Source of the DNA: Basidiobolus meristosporus CBS 931.73
Lineage: Eukaryota > Basidiobolomycota > Basidiobolomycetes > Basidiobolales > Basidiobolaceae
Direction of reading: 5' to 3'
Assembly (NCBI GenBank): GCA_002104905.1
Contig: MCFE01000641.1
Span: 1 to 50,630, forward strand
DNA: 50,630 nt
Each line of letters starts with the position of its first letter. The stretch's first letter is position 1. A program made the position numbers and the translations under genes. Shown piece after piece: positions 28,017 to 50,630 of the stretch. The notes beneath the pieces are model-generated. The model was not told where the DNA came from. It saw only the letters and a program-made list of their open reading frames with translations, and did no database searches.

Positions 28017-31000
28017 CTAAATGCTCATACTGACTAGTCCTAATTTTGACCTAAGATATTCAAACTTGTCTCTAGCTAATGGTTTGGTAAATATGTCTGC
28101 AATCATTTCATCTGTAGGACAGTAAACTAAGCTAGCTAAGTTATTCTCTATAGCTTCACGTATGAAATGATGTCTAATATCTATGTGCTTGGTTCTAGCA
28201 TGAAAAGTTGGATTTCTACCTAATTGTATACATCCTTGATTATCTTGAGATAAAGTAATAGGCGTTTTTTGACATAGGCCTAAATCTGTAAAGAGCTTTC
28301 TTAACCACATTGCTTCTTTTGTAGCTTCACAGGCTGCCATATACTCTGCCTCTGTGGTGGAAAGTGCTACGGTTGGTTGCTTTCTTGAATTCCATGAAAT
28401 TGCTCCTTTACAGTAAAGAAAGGTGTATTCTGTGATGAAGCTTCTGTCTTCTAAATTTTGTCCCCAATCTGCATCAGAGTATCCCACAAGATCCTGTTCT
28501 GAATCCTTATAAGTATATCTTAAGCAGATATCAGCAGTTCCTTTTAGGTATCTAAAAATCTGCTTAACTGCTGCAATATGATCAGATCCATAGTTCTGAT
28601 CATATTGGCTGACAACTCCCACTGAATATGAGATATCTGGACGTGTTCCAAGCATGATATACATCAGACTGCCAACCATAGATTGATAAGGAAAGCCAGG
28701 GCTTTCAGATGCCACCAAGCTCTCTTGATTTGGTTGAGTTTTGACCAAGTTAGGGTTTGTCTCCATTGGGGTAGCTGCTGGTTTACAGTCTTCCATTTTG
28801 TACTTCTTTAGTATATCTTGAATATACATGGATTGACTTAGGGTGATAGTCTGGGTACTTCTGTCTATGGAGAACTTAATCCCTAAGTAGTAACTAAGTT
28901 CTCCTAGATTGGACATCTTGAACTCCTTAGATAGGCTGGATTTAGTCTCTTCCAATGTGTCTAGGTTATTGGCAGCTATAATAAGATCATCCACATATAG
29001 AGCTAACAGAACTGGATTTGCTCTATCTGGCTTATAGTATATACTATAGTCAGCATTACTCCTTTTGAAACTCAAAGATTCCAAATAAGAATCTATCCTG
29101 CAATTCCAGGCTCTTGGTGAATGTTTGAGACCATATAGTGACTTTTTAAGCTTGCAGACCAAATGGGGGTTATCTTGGTCAACAAACCCATCAGGCTGGT
29201 CCATATACATGTCCTCATCAAGTTCTCCACTCAAAAATGCAGTTTTTACATCCATTTGATGAATAAAAAACTTATATTTGGCTGCAATAGCCAATATTAA
29301 TCTGATGGAATTAAACTTGGCTACCGGTGCAAAGGTCTCAGTATAGTCAAGTCCTTTTGTTTGAGAGTATCCTTTGGCTACAAGTCTTGCTTTGTATCTT
29401 TCAATTGCACCATCAGCCTTGTATTTTGTCTTGAAGACCCATATGCATCCAATTGATTTTTGGTTGATTGGTAATTTGAATAAGTCCCAAGTTTGATTTT
29501 CCATCAGTGCCTGATATTCCTCAGTGATTGCAGATCTCCAAAACTTTGTCTGAGGGCTATTTAGGGCCTCTTTTACAGTCTGGGGCTCATCAATATGGAC
29601 TGAATAGGTATAGGCTAAGTTTGTACCCTCATTGATAGAATAATTTGGGCTATTTCTTGTCAGATTTCATCTCCGGGCATTTGATACTGGAATGATCACT
29701 TCTGGGATATTCCTGGGCACTGATTCTGGCTGAACCACGGTTGTAGAGTCCTCTGGAGTGAAAAAATTTTCATTGTTTTACTCTGTTTCAATCCTGACAA
29801 TTGGTGGACTTGAGATCAAATTTTCTTCATCATCTGATGTCATTTTTTATGAAAATTTTGAATTTTGATCAAACAGCACATCCCTGGACTTGATAAGCTT
29901 CTTTGCTTTGGTATTGTAGAGTCTGTATGCCTTACTCTCATTGCAGTAGCCCAAAAATATGCATTTTACACTTTTTGGCTCAAATTTTGACTGATTTTCA
30001 AATGGAGTAGAATCACAAAGTATTCTGTTATAACTCCTATTTCTAAGATATACAGCAGTGGCAACTGATTCCACCCAAAAATCATAGGATAATTTTTGAT
30101 CATGGATCATAGATCTTGCCATATCAATTATTGATCTGTTAGCTCGTTCTGCTACTCCATTTTGCTGTGGGGAGTATGGTACAGTAGTCTCTTGCTTTAT
30201 CCCATGAATTTGCAGAAGTGGATGAAGAGTTTTGAGGTATATTCTCCACTATTGTCAGAGCATATTTTCTTGATTTTTTCACCAGTTTCTCTCTCCACCA
30301 TGGCTTTAAACTCCCTGAGCTTAGACAGAGCTTCTTCCTTTCTCTCCATAAAGTAGACCCATGTGTATCTTGCTTAATCATCAATAAAAGTGATTAAATA
30401 CCTCATCCCACCTAAGGATAAATTTTGCATAGGTCCACACAGATCTGAGTGAATTAGATCTGATTTTTTCTTAGTTTTGAGTAACCCCAAGCTCTTGAAC
30501 GGTTGTCTGGCTTGTTTCCCATATATGCAGGCTTCACAGTGCTCCAAATTAGCTGGGGGATCAATTTTCACTCCAGAAATTAGCTGATCTTTGATCATTT
30601 TGCGCAAATAATCAAAATTGATGTGCCCAAATCTCCTGTGCCAAAGCATTGGTGTTTCTTCATTTAAGTTACTTATATTGGCTTCCAGATATGATGGAAT
30701 ATAAGTCAACTTGTATAGATTCTGATCTCTGATGCCCAAAGCAATATGAGCACCATTTTGATCAGTGATCCTGCATCCAGAATTGTCAAAACTGAAACTG
30801 AGTCCTTCTGCTGTGGCCTTGCTTACAGAGAGTAGGTTCTTGGCTATTTCTGGTACATAGAGTACTTCTTTAAAGGTCAGTGTATGGCTTTCTTCACTGC
30901 TTCTAAGGTTTACTTGGATAGTTCCTTCTCCCACTGCATCAAGTGTTCTATTGTAACCCATGAAAACCTTCTTAATTGGAATTTCTTGATATTGGGTAAA

Positions 31001-31914
31001 AAGTTATTTTTGGTGTGTAAAGTGTTGAGAAGCTCCAGAGTCAATATACCACGTCTGAGAATCCTTGTTTGTGGTCATATTTAGTGCAGATATGAATAGT
31101 CTATCTTCAGTTGTTGCAGCATTTCCATATTCAGGCTTCTTTTGCTGATAATCTCTCTTTTTGAAACACCAGTCTGATGTGTGTCCTTTCCTTTTGCAGT
31201 AGTTGCAAAATAGGTTGCTGTTGCCTTTGTAGGGTCTTGGGTACCTCCTTTGTTGGTTATCATTGCTTATTAAAGCATTTTCTTCTTCCTTCTTATTGGC
31301 GCTTGATTTTCTTAATTCTTCATCCAGGAGCCTTCCATATACGTAATTTAAGGTCAAATCTTCAGTTCTGGACTCTAGGGCTGATACAAGGCCCTGAAAC
31401 TTGTCTATCAGGCTATTCAGGATGGTAACTATCACATCCTCATCAGTAGTTGGTACGCCCACAGATTCCATCTCATCTACCAGCAGGGTAATTCTGTTAA
31501 TTAGATTTTTCATTTCTTCTCCTGGCAGCATCTTTGTAGTGTAAGAATTTTCTTCTCAGATACATTTTCTTGGCAGCTGAACATGACTGGTAGGTGTCTT
31601 CTAATGCTTTCCAGGCATTCTTTGCTGTTTTTGCTCTTGAGCATTGAATTAGCAATTTGTCCTTGACATTAAGGCAAATGCAGTTAAAGGCACTTTGTTC
31701 TTTCTTCTGGTACTTTAAGGCTTCCTCTCCCACGTTTTTAGGAGGGCATTCTTCTCCCATGACAATATCCCAAAGGCCTCTTTCTTGTAGCAGCATCTTC
31801 ATCTTCACCTTCCACACTTGGTAGTTAGATACATCCAACTTTTCAGCAGAGGGAAAAATTCCAGTAATAGCAGTAGTAGACATTGCAGAGAGTGACAGCT
31901 TGGGGCTCATAACC
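28017..31914 (-). pseudogene. Broken gag-pol of copia copy 3
   Basis: Pieces in order on the minus strand: gag start (MSPKLSLSAMSTTAITGIF) at about 31910, gag to protease 31531-31004, protease/integrase 30961-30374, integrase 30384-29847, then RT and RNase H intact from 29504 to 28017 with YVDD and TTEAEYMA. Stops and frame changes separate the pieces, so no full polyprotein is possible. The 495-codon RT/RNase H frame has no start of its own. Confidence 0.9.
31903..31914 (-). other. Primer-binding site of copia copy 3
   Basis: Directly after the 5' LTR the element reads GGTTATGAGCCC. This is the exact complement of GGGCTCATAACC, the anticodon stem-loop of fungal initiator tRNA-Met, so priming is by an internal (half) tRNA as in Drosophila copia and yeast Ty5, not by the tRNA 3' end as in Ty1. 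The ATG inside the site is also the gag start. The old copy 4 keeps the same site at 33279-33290. Confidence 0.8.
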
Positions 31915-32262
31915 TGTTGTAAGAGTCTTGGAGATATTGGAAGTGATTTGGAGAACAAGTAGATTATGTGGTTTTCACTTAATGATTTATTGAATGTAAA
32001 AGTAGTATTTATACTTTTACCTGGTCTTGGCATTACAACACATAGAATAGGTTAAGGAAGGTCCCAAGAGCATGTGTGCAAAGTTTGGGGCTGTTTGGAC
32101 AACTTTGAGAATTCTCATGTTCTGGGTACCAGGTATTTTGGTGAAAATATTCTAAGTAAATCCCAACAAGGTATTTGGTCAGTATTCTCTAGGATTTGAA
32201 GGTGATGATCTAAGTGACTAAGTTAGGTGAATATTTTGGAGGAAATACAAATTTTTACAACA
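31915..32262 (-). repeat. 5' LTR of copia copy 3
   Basis: 348 bp, ends TGTTG..CAACA; the element's primer-binding site abuts it at 31914. Confidence 0.92.
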
Positions 32263-36755: not shown

Positions 36756-38550
36756 TGTGATGTCATTAGGAACTCTGCTGATTTCTAGTACCTTCTAGAA
36801 CTTGCATACAAGTATGTACTTGGCAATCAGGATTTGTATTTAAGTAGAGTCAATTGCACATCAACATATCATCCTATATATCATTGAGCCTCACTCCTTA
36901 TTGATTAGCAGTTGATCACTGCACCAACCTTTAGCTATTACACTTAAGACTTACTAATGAGTAGTTTTCAGGAAAGTGTAAAGGACACAAAGAGACCTTT
37001 GGAGACACCTGGAGCACCTAGGAAGCTGGGGAAACAGGATCTCCTACCATAGTGATAGATTGAGAGTCACCAGCAGTTTAGACCCTGAGGTTATGGGACC
37101 CATTGGACAACTTAAAGCACCTTGAGTTGTGTAGCTTCTCTGAGTAGTATGTTTAAAACAACACCCCACTTAATTCATATTGACACCTTCCTTGTTCCTT
37201 TGGTGTTGGTGATATTGGTGAAAAGGCTTTTGACAATGACTCTGACCAGATGTTTTGTGCAAAGTTGCTGTTAGTTTAACTTTTCAATACCAAAAGAAAT
37301 TGCTGTACAGTACAAAGTATCTGATTGCTACTGTTGCAAAGGGATTGGAGGTAAAGCACAACCCTTCTTGATATACCATAAATCATTCACCAGGAAGCAG
37401 GCGTGTAGGGTGCCCTTTGATATTGCCTGTGAGTCTTTGGTAGTATGTACAGATATGGAATGATCCATATGAGCTACTTAACCAGCCCACAAGTTTCCTG
37501 CTGAGGGTCAAAGCCATCTTGATAACTTTTCATAAAAGCAAGACTGGGTTGCATGTTATGAAGAATGTATTGAAGAGTGTCTTTGTAGCTGCTTCATATA
37601 ACACAGCTCCCTTGTCCAAGATACTTGGGAAAACTCTTGTATATGTCCAGTGAGTTGAGTACCTGAAAGCAACAGAGTCAGAGTCAAGTGTGGCAATAGA
37701 GAGTACGCCATTACTGCAATATCTCAAAACAAATATTGCATTTATTAGTTTATTTTGCCTTTGCTCCTACAACACATATATGAAAGCTTAGTAATTTTCA
37801 ACTTTGAAGGACAAAACCTCAAGGTCTTGACTATCAGTCCAATAAAGACTAGTATTCCCTGCAGAATGCTCAGTGAACAGTACATGTCTCAAAAACCAGC
37901 CTATTTGAGGCAGTATTCAAGGAGTTATGATCAATAAAGTACAATGAGCAAATTCATTAGCCCCCCTTACTAGGTTGCCCTGGTGACTTCAATTGCATCA
38001 AATTTTTGATTTAGCCATTCAAGTGATATGAGATTCCCACAGGTGCTGCATCTATGTTCAGTCTGTGTTACTGCAAAGGTTAGCATAGTATTTTATGTGT
38101 TGCTTGTACAATAGTCCAAAAACTCTTGTACTTTGGAAACTTCTTCTATATGACTTATCCAGGGGAAAAATAAAAGACAGCCTCTCTTACTAAAATCTCT
38201 GCACTACAATTGAAGTTCAAAGGTTTAAGACTCTTGCCTGCATTACTTACACTGTTGAGTGTCTGGATGTTGATCAGTGCTATGCCAGTAAAGAGACTCC
38301 TCAGCTCACATCATCAAATATAGGCATTACACTTAGAGAGTAGGTGTTATACTAAGGGCTAGAAAAAGGTTAGAAGAGCAGGGGGTCAGGGGGATGCAGT
38401 CCTCTAGAGAAAAAAAGCAGGGGGTTTTGGGGATGCAATCCACCATACTGCTCCCATACACTTTAAATTCCCTCTGGGTTACAATTCCTCCTCCTAGCAC
38501 TTATCACCCATACCACAAATATTTGTACCCTACAATTGGCACATTGTCTT
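36756..38550. other. AT-rich gene-free stretch
   Basis: No frame above chance and no match to the repeats elsewhere in the window. At 38376-38440 a G-rich module occurs twice in a row (AGCAGGGGGTCAGGGGGATG and AGCAGGGGGTTTTGGGGATG). The right end runs into the first retroelement tail at TTAGGGGG. Confidence 0.5.
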
Positions 38551-38552
38551 AG

Positions 38553-39472
38553 GGGGAGGAAAAGTCACCAAGGTAGGTGAAATCTTTATTTGATTTCAGA
38601 CAAGTTTAACTACAAATAAAGAAGCCAGCTGGGAATGAAGATTCCCAAAGTAAACACCAAGTTGAATATGAATAAATCTGAGCTAAAGTTTAGACAGTAT
38701 CCCAGAGTACACTGGAGTTCGGGTTCATGGGGGAGTGAAGCAGATAAGCTTGAGAGATATAATAATCTGCTAAGAAGTGGGTAACAGCAGGTGAAGGGGA
38801 GTTTTTGATAAGTGAAGTGAATCCTGAGAGCAGAGATTCCTCTAATGAGAAGGTCTTGTAAACTGGAGAATCAGGAAACTCTTTAAAGGCATGGTCAGTA
38901 GGTTCCCAGTAAAACTGGTCAGAGACATTTTGAGAAAATTGCCGGGCAATACTTATGTCAAGCACTACCTCCAGAGTGTGATGGTTGATAAATCTCATGT
39001 TAACAATCTTAGACAAATTGTAACCTTGTTGCTTGAGATACATCCTATGCTCAGATATAGGAATAAACTCCACAGTTGGCAAAGTAGCAGACAGCCCAGT
39101 CAGTAGCAGGAAGTAAATCAGAAGTGGCAGGAAGCTTTCTTTCAGTCTTGGGAGGAGCAGCAGGATGTCTTGAGGAAGCAGGAACAGGCTTTTTGACAGC
39201 TTCAGAATTGGAAGAGTGAGCAGGCGCAGACAATTCTTGGGCAGTCTTGTTGACAGGCAAGAGTTGGCACAGGGACAATAAGTCTTGTAGATCAGAAAAG
39301 GCAGAAAAAAGCTTTTGAACTTGTTTCTTGAGTAAAGCATTTTCAGCTTCACCAAGTGCAAGCCTTTCCTCCAGGAAGGAAATCTGAAGGGAATGAAGTG
39401 AAGGAATAAGAAATAAGAAGAAGAGGGTAGTAAATGGTGGGTGGGTGAGAAAATTGGCAGGGAGAAGAGAAG
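38553..39472 (-). mobile_element. ORF1-only telomeric retroelement, copy 1 (inactive)
   Basis: On the minus strand it runs from a 5' end at about 39472 to a 3' tail at 38553 that follows TTAGGGGG. It is collinear with the unit at 47728-48650 over its whole length, and similarity stops at the same 5' base (GAGAAGAGAAGG), so both ends are defined. The tail has AAAGAAGCC and a TCACC..GGTGA hairpin. The coding region is dead: the start codon (39405-39407) is ATT, and a one-base insertion near 39073 splits the frame in two (39521-39051 and 39361-38690). Confidence 0.85.
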
Positions 39473-39816
39473 GAAGAAGCAAAATGAAGATGAAGAACAG
39501 AGTGTTACTTGTGGTGCGCATCCAGATGCAGATATTGTAGATAGTATCAGTGAATCACACTCATCAATTATTTCATGTAAAAGGCCACAATTAACAGCCC
39601 CACCTACAGAAATACCAGTTTTGGGTACATCAATGCCATCATTGCCGCCACCACCACCACCGCCATTATTAATGTCTTGAAGAAGTCAGATAAATAAAAT
39701 CAATGATTCTTTTTTGTATTATGCAGAGTTTAATTGATATATTAATAAAGCATGCATAGTGCATTATCTACTTGCCTAATATTTAACTAGCCAGTTGTAG
39801 ACTATAACAGATAGAC
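39473..39816. other. Junction between ORF1 element and helicase relic
   Basis: A short plus-strand frame (to 39680) ends in a proline run encoded by CCACCACCACC repeats at 39648-39664. It may be the lost front of the helicase gene; nothing else is seen. Confidence 0.35.
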
Positions 39817-42650
39817 TTGAGGCAAGCCACAAAGATAGTTACTCTGCTCATCATGACAACAATAGATATGACAACCGGAGAAAATGATTACAAACTGTAT
39901 CAACAATGTCTTGGTTTATATCTGGCAGGAGTAATATCTGTTACTAGGCGCAGTTATTCTTCAGTGACAGTCACACCATCACTAAGAGACATATTTTTAT
40001 ATGGTGGATATCTTGTGGAGCACTTGAGAGATTTATCATTGGAGGGACACCATAGTAATAGTGGTAGGAGAGGTACCAGTGCTGGTAGCCAAAATTTCTC
40101 TCTAACAGGAATTCTTGGCTAACTTAACTCTGGCATTTTGAGAATTAGAATGACTGATATTTGGAATACTGAAGATACTAGAACCAGTACCTTCAATGGA
40201 CAGCAAGATAGTCAGCCTATTTTTTCTACAGGATACTATTACTAGAATTAGAGTCACAGGAAGACTTCTTCTTAGTAATATTTGCGCAGGTGATCATAAG
40301 AATCTTTATGTATTTGGTGGTTTGAGGTAGAGAACAAAATTTCCAACCCAACAACTAACAAAAGTGGAGATGGAGAAATTATTGAAGCTGCAGCAACTAT
40401 TCATTGTAAAGATAATTTCAATTGTATGGATCCAAGTAAGCTACAAGTTATTTGTTACACAGATGCTGATCAGAAGTGGAGAATGTGTAGTAGTAGTACC
40501 CTTCAAACTAAACCATTCATGGGGAACCCCAAAAACATGCCAACCCAACAAGCCTGGGCAACTCTAACATATGCATACAGTTGCTTATTTCTACTTGGTG
40601 GATATGCCATTTCCAACACAGAAATACCTATATTCCCTCCAGAGGATACCCCCTTTTTAAATGAGTTTTATTGCTTGAGGCTACGCACTGGGACTTGGGA
40701 GAAGCTCTATATTCACTCTACAATTCAGAAGGAGTTACTAGGGAATGCTATTTTGGTTGTCAATGAATCTGCAAATCTAATTCATTACATGAACAAGGAA
40801 AACGTTGCTTTTACATATGACATTGATATTAGAATATGGATTTATCCACCTGACCCAGCACAGCATATTAGTACTAAGCAACTTCTGGGACAAATACTCA
40901 ATGAGTCAGCTGGAGTACCACTCACAAGTATGGATGGAAGAAACAATAATTTACTTAGACAGAGTGCTGAGACTCTCAAAGTTCCTCTTAAGAATCATCA
41001 AATCTTTGGTGTGCATTGGCTTAAATACACAGAAGTACTTCATAATGGAGCATTGCTTGCAGATTCCATGGGGTTGGGGAAAACTCAAGAGATATTGAGC
41101 TTGATTGTGGAAACACCTATGCAACAACCAAATCTCATTATTGTTTCATTATCATAACTATTGAATTGGCCAGAAGAAATCAAGAGCAAAACACAAATAT
41201 CAATGCATGAGATACATGTGTTCCATGGGAAATATCAAGCCATACACATGGTTGATATAAAGGCCAAATGGATTGTCCTCACTACCTATCATATGCTTTG
41301 TGTAGAAGCAAAGAACTCTGGATCACCTATCTGGAAGGTGGAATTTGGTCAGGTAGTAGCTGATGAAGCAGTTATACTGAAGAACTATTCTGGTGGAAGC
41401 ATAAATGCAATAGCCAAGGTGAACGGAAAGTCCTTAATTCTTATCACCATGACTCCTTTTCAAAATGATCTTATTGATTTATACTTGTACTTTATTCTCT
41501 TTGGTCAATGGGAAGGCACTCCAAAGGATTTGCAACAACTATTGAATGAGGAGAATAATGCTAATTGGCTTGTTAACTGGCTGGTGAAAAGATTAGGCCA
41601 TATAGTTTTGAGACAAGTACCCGAGTCTCAACTTTTGGAGAGAGAGCAGTACAAATGACTGATATACAAGAGCAGATTATTCTGTGTCAATTATCCATGG
41701 AAGAACAAAAGAAATATACTGAGCTACTAGCAGAGCTGCCAAATGACATTAGTAAGATGGGAGCTAATACATATTTGTGCCTATTTTCATATCACCCATT
41801 CATGTATACCTGGAGCAGAGAGAAGAATATTAGTTTGCAACAAATAAACACTATTGATGGGGAAGAGGATGATGTAGAAGCTGTTTCTGCTGGTATTCTT
41901 CATCAGAGAGTACATTACTAGGTAGCAGAGAAGAAGAAGAAGAAGAAGCAGTAGAGTGTACATCTTATTCTAACCCCTCTTCATTGTTGCCCAAAATGAC
42001 TCCTGAGCAAGTGGAAATAGATCACGCCATTGATAACAATAATGCCACTCCCAATGATGGCATACTTGTAACAGACACCCAGCAAAGAGGCAATACCACA
42101 GAGGGGTTAGATTTGGAACAAGTCTTAATGGAGGATTTTATTTCTGATGTTGAGAATAACACAGTTAACAAACATAGTGCAAAGACACAGCAATTGATTG
42201 ATATTCTGCAAAAGGAGATATTTGCTAATGGGAGCACAATTAGGTTGTCATATTTTCCTCTTTTAATCTGATGCTTGATTTAATTGCATATCATTTGAAG
42301 AGAAATTCAATCACTTTCCTTACTAAAACCAGATCTACTCCAGTGCAAGCTTAGAAATGCAATCTCAAACAATTTGTACTACCAGTTCCAGAGAATGAAA
42401 TCTGGGTCTTATTAATGAACCTTAAATGTGGTGCCTTTGGGTTGAATTTACAGATGGTGTCAGTGATGATCTTCACTGACAACTGGTGGAATCTGTTTGT
42501 TGAAGCCCACGCAAAAGCTTGTGTACAGAGAGTGAATTAGCCAAAGAATATAGTCAGTGACCAGCTGATAATGCAGGATTTGTTTGAATCCCAAGGACTT
42601 ATTGACAGTCAAACCCAAAAGCTTGACTTATTGACTAGAATGACCTGTAC
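39817..42650 (+). pseudogene. Broken Kelch-SNF2 helicase gene
   Basis: Plus-strand pieces in several frames give, in order: Kelch-like motifs (PSLRDIFLYGGY near 39985; AYSCLFLLGGYAISN near 40580; FYCLRLRTGTWEKL near 40670), then SNF2 motif I as DSMGLGKT (41068), motif II as VADEAVILKN (41357) where DEAH is expected, motif III LITMTPFQND (41440), and the second lobe with FSSFNLMLDLIAYHLKRNSI (42255) and LLMNLKCGAFGLNL plus NWWN (42410-42500). The second lobe is closest to Rad16/HLTF-type SNF2 ATPases. In-frame stops (41155, 41656, 41919, 42269 and others) mean it is dead. It runs almost up to the TTAGGG tract at 42672. Confidence 0.78.
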
Positions 42651-42681
42651 ATGTGTTGATGAATATTCCACTTAGGGTTAG

Positions 42682-44243
42682 GGGGGGAGACATTCACCAA
42701 CAGGTGAAAATCTTTATTTCAGTTGAAACAAAGAAGCCAGCGCTACTGTTGTAGCTTTGATACAAGAGTGTGTAGCTGAGGGGAATTTGTTGGTAAGTTA
42801 ATAAGAAGTGATGATAGTTCTTCAGTGGTCAAGACACTGTTCAGTGGGAAGGGGGGTAGCAAGAGAGGTAAGAATGACTTGTGAACAACATTAATGAGGG
42901 GAATGTGATAAGGATTGATATTCATCATAAAGGGTGTGTGCTGCTGCAGATATTGCTGCCAAAGGTCTGTCAAGTACCTCAGGTAGGCCAGCTTGGGTTT
43001 TTCTGACTGCAGAATAAGTTCAGCAAACTTCTTGACTTCAGGATCTCCAAGTATAGTTCTCCAGCAGGAGTCAGGTGTAGTGTGGTGTGTTCTCTTCCAT
43101 GCCTTAATCAGTGGGTTGTTGCAGTTGTGAAGTCTGAGGTATAATCTGGTTCTAAGGTAGAGAAGTCTGATCTTATAGGGCATAAACCCAAAAGCACCAA
43201 GAATAGCATGTCTGTAGGGGCATTCAGGCAAATCAGGCACCAAGGAGGTAATGCACCATACTGAAAACTTGTCAAGCTTAGTGCAGTCTCTAGAAGTAAG
43301 AGAGAGAAGTGGTAAGCCAAATTCCAGGACAGGGAAGACAAACTGCTTGAGTAGAAGGAGGCAGCTGGGAGCTGAAGTTGTAGGAGGAGTAACAACCAGT
43401 AGCTTGTGGAGTGCCTGTCTTGCCAGGATAATTCTCTTCTTCAGGTGTGCTCCAGAGTCTAGTCCAGTAGGAAGGAAAGGAAAGCCAAGATATGTAGCAG
43501 AAACCTGAGCAGGTAGAGTGGAGTTCTCCAAGTTGATGGGAGAGCCCAAAGGTACTGTCTTTGCAATGGAAAGCTGGAGATTATTCTTCTGCAGATACTG
43601 GTGGATGGTCTGGGAGTCTTGTTGCACATTGGAGGAGGATATTCTGATGTCATCAGCAAAGAGAGTAACCAGGCAGTCAGCTGAGAGTCTTGGGAAATCA
43701 TTCAGGAAGATGGCAAACAGTATAGGACCAAGCACAGAGCCTTGAACCACTCCATTAGGAACTGAGAACACAGCTGATTGCTCACTTGGGTGCAGAATTC
43801 TTGCTTGTGGATCCAGAAACAGAGACCTGACAAGGAGGGTGAGAGAGGTACTGGAGAAGCATTGCAACTTGGATCAAAGCAGATTTCTATCAACTGAATC
43901 AAAGGCCTTAGTAATATCAAACAGAACAGAGGGATACTTGCACTGGAGAAAGTGATCTTGGCTAAGTATGACTGCATATTCCAAGGAGAGGCCAGGAACA
44001 AAGCCAAACTGTGCAGGATGAAACTTGAGGGAGTCGGAGTAGAGCTCCTGAGCAAGCAGAAGCTCAAACACCTTTCTGCAGGTGGGCAGCAGAGATATTG
44101 GCCTGTAGGAGCTAGGATCCAGGTGCTTTCCTTTACCCTTGTACAGTGGCAGAACATTTGCAAAGGACCATTGCTCAGGAGTAGAAAGCTGGGCTGAACA
44201 TTGCTGAAACAGTAGAAGCAGAAGTGCAGACATGGCCTTGGTA
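42682..44243 (-). mobile_element. Telomeric non-LTR element, family A copy 1 (5'-truncated)
   Basis: The 3' tail (42682 onward: TTCACCAACAGGTGA hairpin, ATCTTTATTT, AAAGAAGCC) follows TTAGGGTTAGGG. The body is nearly identical to copy 2 at 45440-47667, but it stops abruptly at about 44243 (after GGTAC) and the next bases are TTAGGGG and the tail of family B. About 700 bases of the 5' end, including the first 220 codons, are missing. Confidence 0.92.
42743..44243 (-). pseudogene. Truncated reverse transcriptase, family A copy 1
   Basis: Encodes the RT core and C-terminal region seen in copy 2. Relative to it, the codon for Trp338 is TGA instead of TGG (near 43868), so the frame is split into 44243-43870 and 43867-42743. 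The upstream frame fuses in phase with codons from the family B tail (start 44323), which is only an accident of the junction. Confidence 0.88.
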
Positions 44244-44249
44244 CTTAGG

Positions 44250-45432
44250 GGAGGGAAAGTCACCAAGTTGGTGAAATCTTTATTTGGGTTAAGAACTAAT
44301 GTAGGTACAAATAAAGAAGCCAATTAAGAGGTCTAGAACCTCTCTAATAAGTAATCTAATTTATGTTTTGTTTCATCTCTAATGTTTGTTTCAATAAAGT
44401 AAAGCTTGTCAGGGGTAAATATAAAATACAGGGGTTTTGGGGGATGTACAAATTGTAGATGTTTCTGATCTATATAATCCAAGACTGGAACCCAGCCTGG
44501 GATTAGGTGTAGTAGGAAAGGTGTGTGGACTTGTAAGTAGCGCTGCCACATAGATCTTAGATGGTCCTGAGCCAGTAGTCTTGGTTTTTCAGCTTTTTGA
44601 AGTTTTGAAGCAAGCTCTGTTACTACAGCAGAGCCAACCAGGGTGTGCCAGCAAGAAGATTTCAGGGAAGAGTTAGATTGAAGCCATTGTTTGATGGAGG
44701 GGTTATGTGATTTCTGAAGTTTGACAAGGAAGGAAGCACGGAGATAGACCATTTGGATTTGGTATGGGTAGAAGCCAAAGGCTCCATTAGTTGAATGGAT
44801 ATAGGGAGATACTGGAAGATAAGGTACCAAGGATCTGATACACTGATGGAGATATTTATCCAGGTGGTGAAGTTCTCTGGAGGTTAGGGGTATAATGTGG
44901 AGACCAAATTCAAGTACCAGCAGTACATACTGCTTCAGAAGTATAGGGATCTTTTGAATTGGAGTGTCTGGAGTGACTACTACCAGAAGCTTTTTGAGAG
45001 CCTGCTGGGCAAGACGGATCCTATTATTCAGGTGGAGCTTTGAGTCAATCCCATGTTGACAAAATGGCAGACCTAGATATATTGCAGTTTGTTGTGGCAG
45101 AATGCTAGTGTTCTGTATAGTTGTAGTGCATCCAATTGGGACTGTCTTGGAAATTGAGAGAGAGAGGTTGTTGGCAGCCAAGTACTTCTCAATGATGGCA
45201 GTGTCTGCTATGGGATCAGGAGTAGCAATCTTGATATCATCCACATAGAGAGTTAGTAGTGGATAGGGAGAGTCTGGTGAGGGGCCTTTTGGAAATAAAG
45301 GAAAGTCATGTAGGAATATCACAAATAGTAAGGGACCTAGTACAGATCCTTGGACTACTCCATTTGGAACCTCATAAGTCTCTGGTGTACAACTTGGATG
45401 CAAAATTTTGGCTGAGTTCTCACAAAATAGAG
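44250..45432 (-). mobile_element. Telomeric non-LTR element, family B (5'-truncated)
   Basis: Tail at 44250 (TCACCAAGTTGGTGA hairpin, AAATCTTTATTT, AAAGAAGCC) after TTAGGGG. The 5' side is cut at about 45432 inside the RT domain and meets the tail of family A copy 2 (TAGGGGGGG). The protein is clearly related to but well diverged from family A, so this is a second family in the same niche. Confidence 0.88.
44333..45432 (-). pseudogene. Reverse transcriptase, family B, 5'-truncated
   Basis: About 365 codons without a genuine start. It keeps VPNGVVQGSVLGPLLFVIFL (motif B), LYVDDIKIA (the YVDD active site, motif C) and the thumb and C-terminal region also found in family A (LEFGL..PLTSREL, GAFGFYPYQIQMVYLRA). 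Motif A and everything before it is missing. No zinc finger or endonuclease is visible after the RT. Confidence 0.85.
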
Positions 45433-45439
45433 AATGTAG

Positions 45440-47667
45440 GGGGGGGGAGACAGTCACCAACAGGTGAAATCTTTATTTCTGTTGAAACAAAGAAGCCAGT
45501 GCTACTGTTGTAGCTTTGATACAAGAGTGTGTAGCTGAGGGGAATTTGTAGGTAAGTTAATAAGAAGTGATGATAGTTCTTCAGTGCTCAAGACACTGTT
45601 CAGTGGGAAGGGGGGTAGCAAGAGAGGTAAGAATGACTTGTGAACAACATTAATGAGGGGAATGTGATAAGGATTGATATTCATCATAAAGGGTGTGTGC
45701 TGCTGCAGATATTGCTGCCAAAGGTCTGTCAAGTACTTCAGGTAGGCCAGCTTGGGTTTTTCTGACTGCAGAATATAGTGAGCAAACCTCTTGACTTCAG
45801 GATCTCCAAGTATAGTTCTCCAGCAGGAGTCAGGTGTAGTGTGGTGTGTTCTCTTCCATGCCTTAATCAGTGGGTTGTTGCAGTTGTGAAGTCTGAGGTA
45901 TAATCTGGTTCTAAGGTAGAGAAGTCTGATCTTATAGGGCATAAACCCAAAAGCACCAAGAATAGCATGTCTGTAGGGGCATTCAGGCAAATGAGGCACC
46001 AAGGAGGTAATGCACCATACTGCAAACTTGTCAAGCTTAGTGCAGTCTCTAGAAGTAAGAGAGAGAAGTTGTAAGCCAAATTCCCGGACAGGGAAGACAA
46101 ACTGCTTGAGTAGAAGAAGGCAGCTGGGAGCTGAAGTTGTAGGAGGAGTAACAGCCAGTAGCTTGTGGAGTGCCTGTCTTGCCAGGATAATTCTCTTCTT
46201 CAGGTGTGCTCCAGAGTCTAGTCCAGTAGGAAGGAAAGGAAAGCCAAGATATGTAGCAGAAACCTGAGCAGGTAGAGTGGAGTTCTCCAAGTTGTTGGGA
46301 GAGCCCAAAGGTACTTTCTTTGCAATGGAAAGCTGGAGATTATTCTTCTGCAGATACTGGTGGATGGTCTGGGAGTCTTGTTGCACATTGGAGGAGGATA
46401 TTCTGATGTCATCAGCAAAGAGAGTAACCAGGCAGTCAGCTGAGAGTCTTGGGAAATCATTCAGGAAGATGGCAAACAGTATAGGACCAAGCACAGAGCC
46501 TTGAACCACTCCATTAGGAACTGAGAACACAGCTGATTGCTCACTTGGGTGCAGAATTCTTGCTTGTGGATCCAGAAACAGAGACCTGACAAGGAGGGTG
46601 AGAGAGGTACTGGAGAAGCATTGCAACTTGGACCAAAGCAGATTTCTATCAACTGAATCAAAGGCCTTAGTAATATCAAACAGAACAGAGGGATACTTGC
46701 ACTGGAGAGAGTGATCTTGGCTAAGTATGACTGCATATTCCAAGGAGAGGCCAGGAACAAAGCCAAACTGTGCAGGATGAAACTTGAGGGAGTCAGAGTA
46801 GAGCTCCTGAGCAAGCAGAAGCTCAAACACCTTTCTGCAGGTGGGCAGCAGACATATTGGCCTGTAGGAGCTAGGATCCAGGTGCTTTCCTTTACCCTTG
46901 TACAGTGGCAGAACATTTGCAAAGGACCATTCCTCAGGAGTAGAAAGCTGGGCTGAGCATTGCTGAAACAGTGGAAGCAGAAGTGCAGACATGGCCTTGG
47001 TACTAGTCTTCAGAAGCTCATAAGAGATTGTGTCCACACCTGGAGCAGTAGAGTTGGGAAGCCTCTTGAGCACATTATGGATTCTCCTTTGATCAAGTGC
47101 AAGTGGGATGGGCAGAGTCTTGAAGTCAGGATGAAAGCCAGGAGTTGAGTACTGCTTTGTAGAGAAGAAGATGTTAGCCAGCTGTTCTGTTGAAGGTAAC
47201 TTCCTGGAAGAGGGCCTCATTGCCCTGTAGAGTCTTGATACTGTTCTTGTTATAGAGTTGGAAGATTGCAGAGGCAAAGAACTCATAATATGATCCCAGA
47301 GCTGAGTATGCAGAGTGTGGTGAATTGCCTTGGAGTGGTGTATTGCTGTCAGGAGGAGTTTCTCTGTTTTTGGGTTAGGGAAACTCAGGTAGCTTTGTTG
47401 CAGGGCTGAAACAATGGATTCCCATTTTCTTGAGGTAACAGCAGTAGTCTTGCATGGTAGTGAAAGGGAGGCAGACACCAGAATCAGATGCTTCACAAAG
47501 AGCCAGGCATAGTTGAGATCATCTGGCAGAGAAAGTAGCAAACTGGCAAGCTTCAAGTTGTTCCCAAAGTCTTTCTTCTGATTCTTGGTAGCTTTGTGGG
47601 TGAGCACAGTAAGTTTTGGCAGCTTCCTCTTCACAACTGGTTGCATAGAAAGGGACCAGGCTGGGTG
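45440..47667 (-). mobile_element. Telomeric non-LTR element, family A copy 2, apparently complete
   Basis: 3' tail at 45440 (TCACCAACAGGTGA, AAATCTTTATTT, AAAGAAGCC) and 5' end at about 47667, which meets GGGTTAGGGTTAGGG. The 5' leader is only about 20 bases before the ATG at 47646. Size about 2.23 kb. Only one copy shows this 5' end, so truncation of a longer element cannot be ruled out; but the frame is intact and begins with an ATG. Confidence 0.85.
45502..47646 (-). CDS. Reverse transcriptase of family A, no endonuclease seen
   Basis: 714 residues. Residues 1-180 are basic and helical; the RT domain spans about 185-480: YKGKGKHLDPSSYRPICLL near 250, motif A FDITKAFDSVDR near 323-334 (catalytic D324), motif B PNGVVQGSVLGP near 377-388, motif C FADDI near 410-414. 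Residues 480-714 are the thumb and a C-terminal region of unknown role. LINE-type ORF2 proteins normally carry an APE endonuclease before the RT, or a CCHC plus PD-(D/E)xK endonuclease after it, as in MoTeR or R2; neither is visible. The closest functional parallel is an RT that uses an existing DNA 3' end as primer. Transcription would run from the chromosome end inward. Confidence 0.88.
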   Translation of the reverse strand: MQPVVKRKLPKLTVLTHKATKNQKKDFGNNLKLASLLLSLPDDLNYAWLFVKHLILVSASLSLPCKTTAVTSRKWESIVSALQQSYLSFPNPKTEKLLLTAIHHSKAIHHTLHTQLWDHIMSSLPLQSSNSITRTVSRLYRAMRPSSRKLPSTEQLANIFFSTKQYSTPGFHPDFKTLPIPLALDQRRIHNVLKRLPNSTAPGVDTISYELLKTSTKAMSALLLPLFQQCSAQLSTPEEWSFANVLPLYKGKGKHLDPSSYRPICLLPTCRKVFELLLAQELYSDSLKFHPAQFGFVPGLSLEYAVILSQDHSLQCKYPSVLFDITKAFDSVDRNLLWSKLQCFSSTSLTLLVRSLFLDPQARILHPSEQSAVFSVPNGVVQGSVLGPILFAIFLNDFPRLSADCLVTLFADDIRISSSNVQQDSQTIHQYLQKNNLQLSIAKKVPLGSPNNLENSTLPAQVSATYLGFPFLPTGLDSGAHLKKRIILARQALHKLLAVTPPTTSAPSCLLLLKQFVFPVREFGLQLLSLTSRDCTKLDKFAVWCITSLVPHLPECPYRHAILGAFGFMPYKIRLLYLRTRLYLRLHNCNNPLIKAWKRTHHTTPDSCWRTILGDPEVKRFAHYILQSEKPKLAYLKYLTDLWQQYLQQHTPFMMNINPYHIPLINVVHKSFLPLLLPPFPLNSVLSTEELSSLLINLPTNSPQLHTLVSKLQQ

Positions 47668-47677
47668 GGTTAGGGTT

Positions 47678-47725
47678 AGGGGGGATGATCATCACCAAAG
47701 GGTGAAATCTTTATTTAAATAATAG
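47678..47725 (-). mobile_element. Tail-only micro-insertion (family C)
   Basis: Between two TTAGGG tracts lie fewer than 50 bases: ATGATCATCACC, AAAG, GGTGAAATCTTTATTT, AAATAATA. This is just the 3' hairpin and AAATAAA part of a retroelement tail, distinct from families A, B and ORF1, with everything upstream lost. It shows that 5' truncation can be almost total and that the hairpin end is what joins the telomeric repeat. Confidence 0.85.
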
Positions 47726-47727
47726 GG

Positions 47728-48650
47728 TTAGGGAGGGAAAGTCACCAAAGTAGGTGAAATCTTTATTTGATTTCAGACAAGTCTAACTACAAATAAAGAA
47801 GCCAGCTGGGAATAGAAGATTCCCAAAGTAAATACTAAGTTGAATATGAATAAATCTAAGCTAAAGTTAAGGCAGTATCCCAGAGTACACTGGAGTTCAG
47901 GTTCATGGGGGAGTGAAGTAGATAAGCTTGAGAGATATAATAATCTTTTAAGAAGTGGGTAACAGCAGGTGAAGGGGAGTTTTTGATAAGTGAAGTGAAT
48001 CTTGAGATCAGAGATTCCTCTAATGAGAAGGTCTTGTAAACTGGAGAATCAGGAAACTCTTTGAAGGCATGGTCAGTAGGTTCGCAGTAAAACTGGTCAG
48101 AGACATTTTGAGAGAATTGTGTTGCAATACTTTTGTCAAGTACTACCTCCAGAGTGTGATGGTTGATAAATCTCATGTTAACAATCTTGGATAAGTTGTA
48201 ACCTTGTTGCTTGAGATACATCCTATGCTCAGATATAGGAATAAACTCCACATTGGCAAAGTAGCAGACAGCCCAATCAGTAGCAGGAGGCAAATCAGAA
48301 GTGGCAGGAAACTTTCTTTTAGTCTTGGGAGGAGCAGCAGGATGTCTTGAGGAAGCAGGAACAGACTTTTTGACAACTTCAGAGTAGGAAGAGTGAGCAG
48401 GAGCAGATGATTCTTGGGGAGTCTTGTTGGCAGGAAGAGTTGGCTCAGGGACAATAGATTCTTGCAGATCAGAGAAGGCAGAAAAGAGCTTTTGAACTTG
48501 TTTCTTGAGTAGAGCATTTTCAGCTTCAACAAGTGCAAGCCTTTCCTCAAGGAAAGAAATCTGAAGGGAATGGAGTGAAGGCATAAGAAATAAGAAGAAG
48601 CGGGTAAGATGGGGTGGGTGGGTGGGAAAATTAGCAGGGAGAAGAGAAGG
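47728..48650 (-). mobile_element. ORF1-only telomeric retroelement, copy 2 (intact)
   Basis: A unit of about 920 bp with its 3' tail at 47728 (TCACCAAAGTAGGTGA, AAATCTTTATTT, AAAGAAGCC) after TTAGGG, and its 5' end at 48650 before GGTTAGGG. It contains a 66-nt leader, one protein frame and a 3' untranslated tail, and nothing else. The second copy at 38553-39472 has the same two ends. Confidence 0.88.
47856..48584 (-). CDS. ORF1-like (gag-like) coiled-coil protein
   Basis: 242 residues from the ATG at 48584; the frame is open further up but without an ATG. Residues 8-42 form a leucine-heptad coiled coil (LEERLALVEAENALLKKQVQ). Next is a Pro/Ser/Lys-rich linker, then a domain from about residue 115 (ISEHRMYLKQQGYNLSKIV, MRFINHHTLEVVLDKSI) that resembles the RNA-binding part of fungal LINE ORF1 proteins. 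Such proteins coat element RNA and chaperone reverse transcription. No RT is in this unit, so it would depend on family A or B enzymes, and could supply them with a coat protein they lack. The resemblance to ORF1 is from motif memory. Confidence 0.7.
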   Translation of the reverse strand: MPSLHSLQISFLEERLALVEAENALLKKQVQKLFSAFSDLQESIVPEPTLPANKTPQESSAPAHSSYSEVVKKSVPASSRHPAAPPKTKRKFPATSDLPPATDWAVCYFANVEFIPISEHRMYLKQQGYNLSKIVNMRFINHHTLEVVLDKSIATQFSQNVSDQFYCEPTDHAFKEFPDSPVYKTFSLEESLISRFTSLIKNSPSPAVTHFLKDYYISQAYLLHSPMNLNSSVLWDTALTLA

Positions 48651-48656
48651 GTTAGG

Positions 48657-48904
48657 GGGGAGGAAAGTCACCAAGTGGTGAAATTTTTATTTACTTATGA
48701 CAAGTATCCAAAGAAGCCATGTTAATCTGAAGTAATTCCTAGAAAGCTAGGTCTGAGAGATATCTTCCTGGTAAGCCAGGTCTGAGAGTTGAGAAGCTGA
48801 GTGGTACTGTATTTCCTAGTTAGCTAGGTCTGAGAGAGGTTTCCTGGAAAGCCAGGCCTGAGAAGTGAGAATCTGAGTATATCTGAGGTGAGTTTTACTG
48901 ATTT
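48657..48904 (-). mobile_element. Telomeric SINE, copy 1 (5'-truncated)
   Basis: Carries the 3' 250 bases of the SINE: tail hairpin TCACCAAGTGGTGA, AAATTTTTATTT, AAAGAAGCC, and the four-hairpin region. It is cut at about 48904 and the next bases are GGTTAGGGG and the tail of copy 2. The tRNA-like head is missing. Confidence 0.88.
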
Positions 48905-48912
48905 GGTTAGGG

Positions 48913-49433
48913 GGAGGAAAGTCACCAAGTGGTGAAATCTTTATTTACTTATGACAAGTATCTAAAGAAGCCAAGTTAATCTGAAGTAATTCCTAGAAAG
49001 CTAGGTCTGAGAGATATCTTCCTGGTAAGCCAGGTCTGAGAGTTGAGAAGCTGAGTGGTACTATATTTCCTAGTTAGCTAGGTCTGAGAGAGGTTTCCTG
49101 GAAAGCCAGGCCTGAGAAGTGAGAATCTGAATATATCTGAGCTAAGTTATACTGGTTTGCGGTAGCTGAATTGTGGCCGGAATGGCCAGTAGACTGGGGG
49201 AACTGAGATGAATTTCTGGGCGATCACTGGCCAAATATACTAGGCAAATCTGGCCAATTAGCATTTCAAGGATTTCAGCCAATCAGAGCCTTTACTTTGC
49301 CCGATGGTTGATCAAGCCATCTCCCAATGAGCACACATCAATTTATTAATCAAATTTTGCTGGATCCAGGATTTGAACCCACCACCATGGGTATGGAAGG
49401 GTTAGGGATAACCACAAGGCTAAGTGTTCTTGG
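48913..49433 (-). mobile_element. Telomeric SINE, copy 2 (full length)
   Basis: 521 bp, tail after TTAGGG at 48907-48912, head ending GTGTTCTTGG at 49433 followed by TTGGGTTAGGGTTAGGG. Nearly identical to copies 3 and 4. It has no long frame. Confidence 0.9.
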
Positions 49434-49456
49434 TTGGGTTAGGGTTAGGGTTAGGG

Positions 49457-49979
49457 GGGAGGAAAGTCACCAAGTGGTGAAATCTTTATTTACTTATGAC
49501 AAGTATCTAAAGAAGCCAAGTTAATCTGAAGTTATTCCTAGAAAGCTAGGTCTGAGAGATATCTTCCTGGTAAGCCAGGTCTGAGAGTTGAGAAGCTGAG
49601 TGGTACTATATTTCCTAGTTAGCTAGGTCTGAGAGAGGTTTCCTGGAAAGCCAGGCCTGAGAAGTGAGAATCTGAATATATCTGAGCTAAGTTATACTGG
49701 TTTGCGGTAGCTGAATTGTGGCCGGAATGGCCAGTAGACTGGGGGAACTGAGATGAATTTCTGGGCGATCACTGGCCAAATTTACTAGGCAAATCTGGCC
49801 AATTAGCATTTCAAGGATTTCAGCCAATCAGAGCCTTTACTTTGCCCGATGGTTGATCAAGCCATCTCCCAATGAGCACACATCAATTTATTAATCAAAT
49901 TTTTGCTGGATCCAGGATTTGAACCCACAACCATGAGTATGGAAGGGTTAGGGATAACCACAAGGCTAAGTGTTCTTGG
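49457..49979 (-). mobile_element. Telomeric SINE, copy 3 (full length)
   Basis: 523 bp. Preceded by a short TTAGGG tract; the head ends GTGTTCTTGG and meets TGGGTTAGGGG. Same structure as copy 4. Confidence 0.9.
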
Positions 49980-50068
49980 TGGGTTAGGGGGAGGAAAGTC
50001 ACCAAGTGGTGAAATCTTTATTTACTTATGACAAGCATCTAAAGAAGCCAAGTTAATCTGAAGTAATT

Positions 50069-50187
50069 CCTAGAAAGCTAGGTCTGAGAGATATCTTCCT
50101 GGTAAGCCAGGTCTGAGAGTTGAGAAGCTGAGTGGTACTATATTTCCTAGTTAGCTAGGTCTGAGAGAGGTTTCCTGGAAAGCCAGG
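50069..50187 (-). repeat. Four tandem mini-hairpins in SINE copy 4
   Basis: On the plus strand: CCTAG-AAAG-CTAGG (50069-50082), CCTGG-TAAG-CCAGG (50098-50111), CCTAG-TTAG-CTAGG (50146-50159), CCTGG-AAAG-CCAGG (50174-50187). Each is followed by T/CCTGAGA. The two halves are a duplication with a period of 77 bases. Stem changes A-T to G-C are matched on both sides. Confidence 0.85.
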
Positions 50188-50445
50188 CCTGAGAAGTGAG
50201 AATCTGAATATATCTGAGCTAAGTTATCATGGTTTGCGGTAGCTGAATTGTGGCCGGAATGGCCAGTAGACTGGGGGAACTGAGATGTATTTCTGGGCGA
50301 TCACTGGCCAAATTTACTAGGCAAATCTGGCCAATTAGCATTTCAAGGATTTCAGCCAATCAGAGCCTTTACTTTGCCCGATGGTTGATCAAGCCATCTC
50401 CCAATGAGCACACATCAATTTATTGATCAAATTTTGCTGGATCCA

Positions 50446-50499
50446 GGATTTGAACCCACAACCATGGGTATGGAAGGGTTAGGGATAACCACAAGGCTA
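50446..50499 (-). promoter_or_regulatory. Internal Pol III promoter (A and B boxes) of SINE copy 4
   Basis: A-box-like TAGCCTTGTGG at 50499-50489 starts 12 bases from the 5' end; B box GGTTCAAATCC at 50456-50446 lies 32 bases further. Spacing and order are those of a tRNA. Copies 2 and 3 carry the same boxes. The sequence between them contains CCCTAACCC, the telomeric C-strand motif. Confidence 0.72.
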
Positions 50500-50510
50500 A
50501 GTGTTCTTGG

Positions 50511-50630
50511 TTAGGTTAGGGTTAGGGTTAGGGTTAGGGTTAGGGTTAGGGTTAGGGTTAGGGTTAGGGTTAGGGTTAGGGTTAGGGTTAGGGTTAGGGT
50601 TAGGGTTAGGGTTAGGGTTAGGGTTAGGTT
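50511..50630. repeat. Telomere, (TTAGGG)n
   Basis: About 120 bases of TTAGGG repeats to the end of the window, beginning with one TTAGG variant. The G-rich strand runs 5' to 3' toward the window end, so this is a true right-hand chromosome end or very close to it. Confidence 0.97.

Follow-up and report, generated by a model that had tools for sequence, protein, structure and literature searches.

The terminal 12 kb of the window, which is the whole stretch of DNA analyzed here (50,630 nt) and an entire contig of an 89-Mb fungal genome, holds the 3' ends of ten retroelements, each lying on the minus strand, and the outer end of this stack consists of ∼20 TTAGGG units. Because five families sharing one 3' hairpin lie with their 5' sides outward and are joined mostly via a single TTAGGG unit, and because long arrays occur only at the true end, we consider it an even proposition that non-LTR retroelements, acting as a guild, lengthen chromosome ends that have lost their protection, that telomerase re-caps them, and that the cycle then repeats.

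A first-pass annotation of this DNA had described a same-orientation stack at a chromosome end, with TTAGGG or G-rich sequence on the centromere side of each 3' end, and we confirm this observation. The shared hairpin (TCACC-loop-GGTGAAA) occurs ten times in the window, always in a minus-strand element, at positions 38565, 42694, 44260, 45454, 47692, 47742, 48668, 48922, 49467, and 49999. A search of the whole window revealed no opposite-strand copy and none elsewhere, and the number expected by chance is 0.04 on average (200 mononucleotide shuffles). Each of the ten hairpins is preceded on the centromere side by a tract of TTAGGG or TAGGG(G)n, while the 5' sides point to the terminal array (50509-50628): in eight of ten elements the 5' side abuts the next element directly, that of the innermost meets a gene fragment, and that of the outermost meets the terminal array. 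Between 38501 and 50500 the plus strand has 18 copies of TTAGGG and zero of CCCTAA. The description as a stack of retroelements holds for the ten elements and does not extend to 39483-42670, a non-retroelement gene fragment on the other strand. The features of the stack are as follows.

38549..39485, minus strand: family C copy, coding for an ORF1-like protein alone; 3' end at the junction of CATTGTC with TTAGGGGG, 5' end directly joined to the gene fragment
39483..42670, plus strand: subtelomeric SNF2-like gene in truncated form, with its break at 42670, beyond which the copy on C1 extends
42672..44244, minus strand: family A LINE, 5' truncated, 1.57 kb, preceded by CTTAGGGTTAGGG
44245..45435, minus strand: family B LINE, 5' truncated, reverse transcriptase (RT) fragment
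45436..47666, minus strand: family A LINE, 5' truncated, 2.2 kb; RT frame 45502-47688
47667..47722, minus strand: family E remnant, 3' end only
47723..48650, minus strand: family C copy; ORF1-like frame 47856-48686
48648..48905, minus strand: family D SINE-like copy, 5' truncated
48905..49436, minus strand: family D SINE-like copy, full length
49436..49980, minus strand: family D SINE-like copy, full length; three TTAGGG units precede it
49981..50508, minus strand: family D SINE-like copy, full length, adjoining the terminal array
50509..50630, no strand: terminal (TTAGGG)n array of about 20 units, the chromosome-end cap

The five families (A to E) have the hairpin in common; the upstream 3' stem was assessed by visual inspection. 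Families A and B encode a LINE RT, families C and E encode an ORF1-like protein alone, and family D is a ∼530-bp SINE-like unit. As regards the RT clade, the best solved relatives are LINE-1 and R2 proteins. Among the 61 RT matches scored, 58 are free of internal stops, at 98 to 100% identity. LINE copies in the window are 5' truncated and lack the endonuclease region. The first-pass annotation had invoked endonuclease-lacking elements, a proposal not borne out by one complete 922-aa family A ORF2 (L041) with APE-type motifs or by its relatives, one of which, 54% identical over the endonuclease region, has a fold resembling TRAS1/R1 endonucleases; on these sequences, the reading of an endonuclease-lacking LINE is rejected. 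The Pfam endonuclease match of family A falls under the cutoff, and a conserved Glu-to-Asp change lies at what is presumably the catalytic metal site of the APE-type endonuclease. Motif searches of one family A ORF2, P0002, P0004, and P0006 found no CCHC motif of the C-terminal REL endonuclease and, in place of its RHD/RPD motif, nothing beyond a stray RAD in P0002. A REL-type LINE is unsupported, there being no CCHC motif and an APE-type domain instead, as is a Penelope-like identity. As to a possible tRNA-derived SINE origin of family D, with a tRNA-like head bearing A and B boxes, a B-box-like GGTTCAAATCC is present, and no tRNA was detected by ARAGORN or by Rfam at an E value of ≤1. A telomerase RBD was detected in the genome.

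A genome-wide pattern search returned 1,487 matches in which TTAGGG runs into the element 3' hairpin (a figure that includes double counts and a pattern that leaves family E outside) and 0 for the CCCTAA version. Among the 172 family A 3' ends listed, 100 lie within 30 kb of the end of a long contig with the 5' side outward. Short contigs hold another 65, the bounds of 5 are ambiguous, and 2 are internal (C402:165365 and C558:97957); one set of 100 family A matches contributed 72 entries, the others being places already counted or second offsets of one place. On C291 and C735, both contig ends bear copies, on opposite strands. The exceptions in orientation are the 2 internal 3' ends and one RT copy in C726, and no examined stretch mixes orientations (C217, C27, and C1257, in which elements faced left, were flipped). 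The single orientation that had been predicted is borne out in nearly all placeable copies, with 5' ends toward the chromosome end as in MoTeR/FoTeR; growth at chromosome ends is likewise supported, and copies in both orientations, named beforehand as evidence to the contrary, did not appear among the pattern matches. This test does not discriminate between mechanisms, since a strand-specific telomere endonuclease of the TRAS/SART type also yields one orientation. The 5' neighbor among 120 examined copies was the next element in 68 (one of these direct joins, in C32, has overlapping boundaries), a terminal array in 10, and other sequence in 20. Family A copies vary widely in length, stop either at a neighboring element or at a telomere array, and have mostly different truncation points. 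For family A 3' ends, 18 of the first 100 listed have no TTAGGG within 9 bases.

Perfect TTAGGG units adjoining the element were counted at 119 joins, a nonrandom sample, since loci were selected either on the TTAGGG-plus-hairpin pattern or as best RT matches: there were 0 units in 12 joins, 1 in 87, 2 in 16, 3 in 2, 4 in 1, and 5 in 1. Interrupted tracts (C96:7484, C23:15739, and C309:7484) score short by this count, and some inter-element tracts have greater length with imperfect repeats (about 6 units at C96:7484). Family A was also counted across the whole genome, independently of that selection of loci, with at least one unit in 639 matches, at least two in 133, and at least three in 18. 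True-end arrays, found at 12 of the 20 right contig ends examined, are 115 to 243 nt long (19 to 40 units). Priming on an intact telomere overhang, as had been suggested, is not supported, since it would leave long tracts between elements. The one-unit rule is a countable signature separating addition to an uncapped end from random insertion into an array.

Beyond the tract, the DNA flanking the elements is arbitrary in sequence. When 63 of the 119 joins were placed on family A to D references and the 25 at reference 5' ends were excluded, an overlap of at least 2 bases was seen at 16 of the 38 remaining truncated-copy joins, compared with 19% in simulation (P = 8e-4). C is in excess before TTAGGG (29/43), which the end-extension model does not account for. 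A T-run (poly-A trace) stands at 2 of 119 joins and at none of the other 117, and a few extra bases are present at some family D 5' ends.

In the proposed mechanism, the starting point would be a chromosome end bare of TTAGGG repeats. A ribonucleoprotein built from A/B-type LINEs (RT) and ORF1-like proteins would bind RNA to this end, and the RNA 3' tail (a C-run plus CUAA, sometimes CUAACC(CUAA)) would anneal by a few bases to the exposed 3' end; the C-run plus TAA is compatible with the pairing to G-rich ends envisaged earlier. As the RNA is copied, the first strand would become the new chromosome end. RNAs of families C, E, and D would be served by this machinery too, and an early stop of the cDNA would often produce a 5' truncation. 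Telomerase would then add 19 to 40 repeats, until erosion or breakage bares the end again for the next round; a template jump from one RNA 5' end to the next RNA 3' tail could add several elements at once. Nicking may also be possible, since the LINE retains an APE-type endonuclease domain, like TART and TAHRE. Overall, the earlier interpretation is partly supported.

The SNF2-like gene is cut at 42670 and capped, while the C1 copy runs on; whether the fragment was captured or invaded is judged from the downstream side of C1 only. The age gradient inside stacks is a weak trend only, with the proximal element older in 36 of 51 pairs (independent comparisons, 14 versus 8; P = 0.29). The weakness of this trend, the C excess, the degenerate longer tracts, the 20 of 120 copies with other 5' sequence, and the 18 3' ends lacking TTAGGG all count against end extension. 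More tentatively, and with somewhat less than even confidence, we suggest that the guild, made up of RT-encoding LINEs together with ORF1-only elements and the SINE-like RNA, may serve this telomerase-positive fungus as a second and general end-repair system, in which RNAs with a one-unit seed are copied onto uncapped or broken ends, nontelomeric ones included, before telomerase acts.

The single unit at joins could instead be what remains of the innermost repeat, not a copy of RNA. If an APE-type endonuclease nicked the G strand at the innermost TTAGGG, target-primed insertion would leave the remaining array distal to the element. We regard this as a serious rival, albeit a less likely one: because the flanking DNA is arbitrary, the innermost unit could not be recognized by sequence alone, the arrays at true ends present 19 to 40 equal sites, and the Glu-to-Asp change is conserved at the presumed metal site. 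The 68 direct joins, the extra bases at some family D 5' ends, and a single unit readable as the RNA 3' end would also suit concatemers made in one event, the RT jumping from RNA to RNA to add several elements per extension and telomerase capping the last; such jumping is known for the R2 RT (PMC8857657). The divergence of stack neighbors (in C96, B at 16.7%, then A at 2.8% and A at 0.6%) rules this out for whole stacks, many copies are truncated, and we judge the explanation improbable.

Recombination (break-induced replication or unequal exchange) could spread and rearrange a few old stacks with little present-day retrotransposition. Repair of this type is described for MoTeR relics (PMC7367193), and the gene fragment at 39483-42670 joins the family C 5' end without TTAGGG; the mostly different truncation points of family A and the stop-free, nearly identical RT matches make this account highly doubtful. 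Another explanation could be an assembly artifact, for which the odd orientation skew of contigs (TTAGGGx4, 7,428 forward versus 81 reverse) might speak. Many distinct joins across many contigs, and right ends that finish in telomere arrays in 12 of 20 cases, render it extremely improbable.

The system works like HeT-A/TART, endonuclease-deficient Penelope-like elements, and MoTeR-type elements, yet lacks one tested defining feature of each. Like MoTeR1/2 (Magnaporthe), FoTeR (Fusarium), and CNL1 (Cryptococcus), it comprises fungal LINEs arrayed next to telomeric repeats at the ends of chromosomes. MoTeRs likewise have 5' sides outward and a nonautonomous partner, and their copies are separated by (TTAGGG)1-10. 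It differs from these three in having two ORFs, five families, and tracts peaking at one unit; moreover, MoTeR1 and FoTeR reportedly have a REL-type endonuclease, whereas the present LINE has an N-terminal APE-type domain, and CNL1 is reported to be R2 related. TRAS/SART (Bombyx) are, as here, two-ORF LINEs with an APE-type endonuclease, situated at telomeres that have telomeric repeats; they are further defined by cleavage of the telomeric repeat at a fixed site. A review reports only full-length telomeric copies of them, whereas copies here are mostly truncated, stacked, and joined to non-telomeric DNA mostly via one unit.

HeT-A/TART/TAHRE (Drosophila) share the head-to-tail arrangement with 3' ends toward the centromere, an RT partner with an endonuclease, and a Gag-only partner, which families C and E resemble as counterparts of HeT-A. 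They replace telomerase repeats and have a 3' poly(A), in contrast to the terminal TTAGGG arrays, the telomerase RBD candidate, the SINE-like member, and the 117 of 119 joins without a poly(A) trace found here. Penelope-like elements that are endonuclease deficient (rotifer Athena and others) are proposed, as here, to prime at deprotected telomeres or breaks, with telomeric repeats later added to the truncated 5' end; they have no endonuclease and are of another RT class, whereas the present elements have an APE-type domain and an RT that is probably LINE-type. Endonuclease-independent LINE-1 copying reportedly takes place on exposed ends of dysfunctional mammalian telomeres as a laboratory bypass, whereas the present arrangement is resident and genome-wide. 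If our reading is correct, Drosophila-like extension operates alongside TTAGGG telomeres and is built from an APE-type LINE, and its one-unit signature could be tested in culture by long reads. With retroelements and telomerase-type repeats sharing chromosome ends in this genome, the arrangement bears on how retrotransposon-made telomeres evolved out of telomerase-based ones; the Drosophila division of labor between an ORF1-only and an RT element recurs in an unrelated lineage, with a SINE-like passenger added.

A motif scan of the whole window (contig C915; 50,630 bases, one of 1,311 contigs in an 89.0-Mb genome) detected ten 3' hairpins at 38,551-50,050, with every element on the minus strand. 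The rest of the window contained no such hairpin, and shuffled window sequence yields 0.04, which bears out the claim of the first-pass annotation that ten or more tails lie on this one strand. An array of about 20 TTAGGG units closes the contig. The proteins of the window are of fungal type (e.g., CHS5 domain, RasGEF domain), and its LINE and ORF1-like proteins have their nearest named relatives in Basidiobolus meristosporus CBS 931.73 and B. ranarum. Three further features were located in the window:

2-3619, plus strand, Copia-type LTR retrotransposon
28017-32051, minus strand, Copia-type LTR retrotransposon
39483-42670, plus strand, SNF2-like gene fragment between the first and second elements

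One of the two Copia-type elements is interrupted by the contig start. The SNF2-like fragment has relatives of 66-69% on other contigs, and its family is reminiscent of telomere-linked helicases.

Common to the five stacked families (A to E) is a hairpin behind AATAAAGATTTCACC near the 3' end. Family A is a LINE of about 4.57 kb when complete (example, C518:92482-97052). Its 523-amino-acid ORF1 frame shows a Cys cluster, recognized by eye, and a zipper-like region that Pfam matches only weakly; its ORF2 has 922 amino acids. Family B is a LINE with a reverse transcriptase (RT), seen in this analysis only as truncated copies. Families C (about 0.9 kb) and E (about 1.3 kb) have coding capacity for an ORF1-like protein only; C matches the family A ORF1 frame at 42% (1e-70), and E matches residues 358 to 508 of it at 29% (2e-17). 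The family D unit (∼530 bp) carries a B-box-like motif; its stretch at 48,700-50,630 lacks any stop-to-stop frame of at least 120 amino acids, and tRNA searches of family D with ARAGORN and Rfam gave zero matches. One window copy per family was folded: the minimum-energy structures of A, B, D, and E contain the hairpin, and for C the centroid structure does. Compared with shuffles, the complete 3' piece was more stable in A, D, and E (z = -3.1, -3.6, and -2.7, respectively) but not in B and C, again for one window copy each. The 5' end of family C repeats at 101-bp spacing in several contigs (e.g., C354, C561, and C110).

Orientation was then scored genome-wide. TTAGGG followed within 14 bases by an A-D-type hairpin matched 1,390 times forward and 97 times in reverse, with double counts left in, and CCCTAA in place of TTAGGG gave 0. 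Because contig numbering runs in size order, unknown contig sizes could be bounded from 40 known ones. The family A 3' ends scored numbered 172, of which 72 came from a two-unit list and 100 from another list; 100 of the 172 lay ≤30 kb from a contig end with the 5' side outward, 65 were on contigs too short for judgement, 5 had ambiguous bounds, and 2 were internal (C402:165365 and C558:97957); the single orientation claimed earlier is upheld for nearly all copies that could be placed. On contigs C291 and C735, copies near one end lie on the opposite strand from those near the other, as the outward-5' rule demands. Of 1,587 candidate RT matches, 61 were scored: 43 were within 20 kb of a right end with the 5' side outward, 1 was at a left end, 10 were on short contigs, 6 could be bounded only widely, and the last (C726:57056-59221, plus strand) ran against the rule in an odd orientation. 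TTAGGGx4 occurs 7,428 times forward versus 81 reverse; contigs with a telomere mostly have it on the right, an odd property of the assembly.

We parsed 119 of the 120 joins marked by hairpins in 264 kb; the remaining one has a divergent core. Between foreign sequence and element there were 0 perfect TTA units in 12 joins (including C466:113142, whose tract was unreadable and scored as 0), 1 in 87, 2 in 16, 3 in 2, 4 in 1, and 5 in 1. Rows read by eye placed TTAGGG a few bases farther upstream in 4 of the 12 zero-unit joins and showed a few longer tracts with interruptions, the one at C96:7484 having about 6 units. Of 20 right contig ends examined, 12 carry a terminal array of 115 to 243 nt, or 19 to 40 units; the other 8 ends, among them the inner side C217, stop within elements or other sequence. 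The genome has 718 family A 3' ends; pattern matches for family A numbered 639 with at least one unit (8 of 90 rows compared were second offsets), 133 with at least two, and 18 with at least three. In the first 100 ends, TTAGGG lay within 9 bases in 82 and was absent there in 18. Addition to an intact overhang, or random insertion into 19- to 40-unit arrays, would leave far longer tracts than these; priming on an intact overhang, as read from the original proposal, is not supported.

On the 5' side, 68 of 120 copies met the next element's tract directly, 10 a terminal array, 20 other sequence, and 22 the end of examined sequence. Complete D copies terminate in CTTGG(TT), mostly continuing as CTTGG|TTAGGG. 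In truncated copies, element and tract overlapped by a mean of 1.34 bases versus 0.74 simulated, and by at least 2 bases in 16/38 versus 19% simulated (p = 8e-4), with 8 unresolved joins entered as 0. The base preceding an exact TTAGGG tract start was C in 29 of 43 joins from the window and extracted stretches L009-L075, C being 16% of nearby bases. Poly-A traces occurred at 2 of 119 joins.

One end has been broken. Two regions, C1:332356-335540 and C1241:4093-7285, match the SNF2-like fragment at 92% identity; C1 runs on beyond the breakpoint, where the window has CTTAGGGTTAGGGGGGG and the start of family A. Past this breakpoint, nothing but elements and the terminal array follows in the window; going by C1, the host DNA beyond it was therefore lost and the stump capped, and family A here is not a plain insertion into an otherwise intact gene. 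On its upstream side, the fragment adjoins a family C 5' end without TTAGGG, which suggests that it is a subtelomeric piece captured by repair; such repair is described for MoTeR relics (PMC7367193). A telomerase RNA-binding domain was found on contig C880 as two exon-like pieces (40.5 and 34.7 bits, above the cutoff), one of which reads through a stop. From this domain and the terminal arrays, we infer that telomerase is probably active.

We favor copying of RNA onto ends stripped of repeats, followed by capping by telomerase. Orientation, stacking, and mostly one-unit joins enter this account as observations, as do, for one end, host DNA that was lost ahead of capping and, further, long arrays only at the tip. 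Element RNA would bring its own telomere-repeat seed, priming would occur on a free DNA end, and families C, D, and E would use a shared RT; telomerase would cap the newly extended end, which erosion would later re-expose. The main rival is endonuclease nicking confined to the innermost repeat. The first-pass annotation held that extension predicts exactly this orientation; the orientation stands, but nicking of the innermost repeat fits it too, so orientation alone cannot separate the two.

In a library with few subscription papers, none of those listed for Basidiobolus together with telomere or retrotransposon, PMC11105155 among them, dealt with such elements in its title or abstract opening. 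Published work covers FoTeR (PMC12857005), MoTeR (PMC7367193), CNL1 (PMC12810828), SART/TRAS (review, PMC4700185), Drosophila telomeres (review, PMC5537684), and R2 template jumping (PMC8857657). The 5' region of family A contains an internal TTAGGGTTAGGG in L069:3678-3831 (C518:96897-97050), and on C427 a ∼100-bp unit occurs twice; both recall the telomere-like 5' ends of MoTeR. The model for EN-deficient Penelope-like elements (PMC3846280) places priming at deprotected telomeres or breaks and has the truncated 5' end later gain repeats; the anatomy is the same as here, but the enzyme is different.
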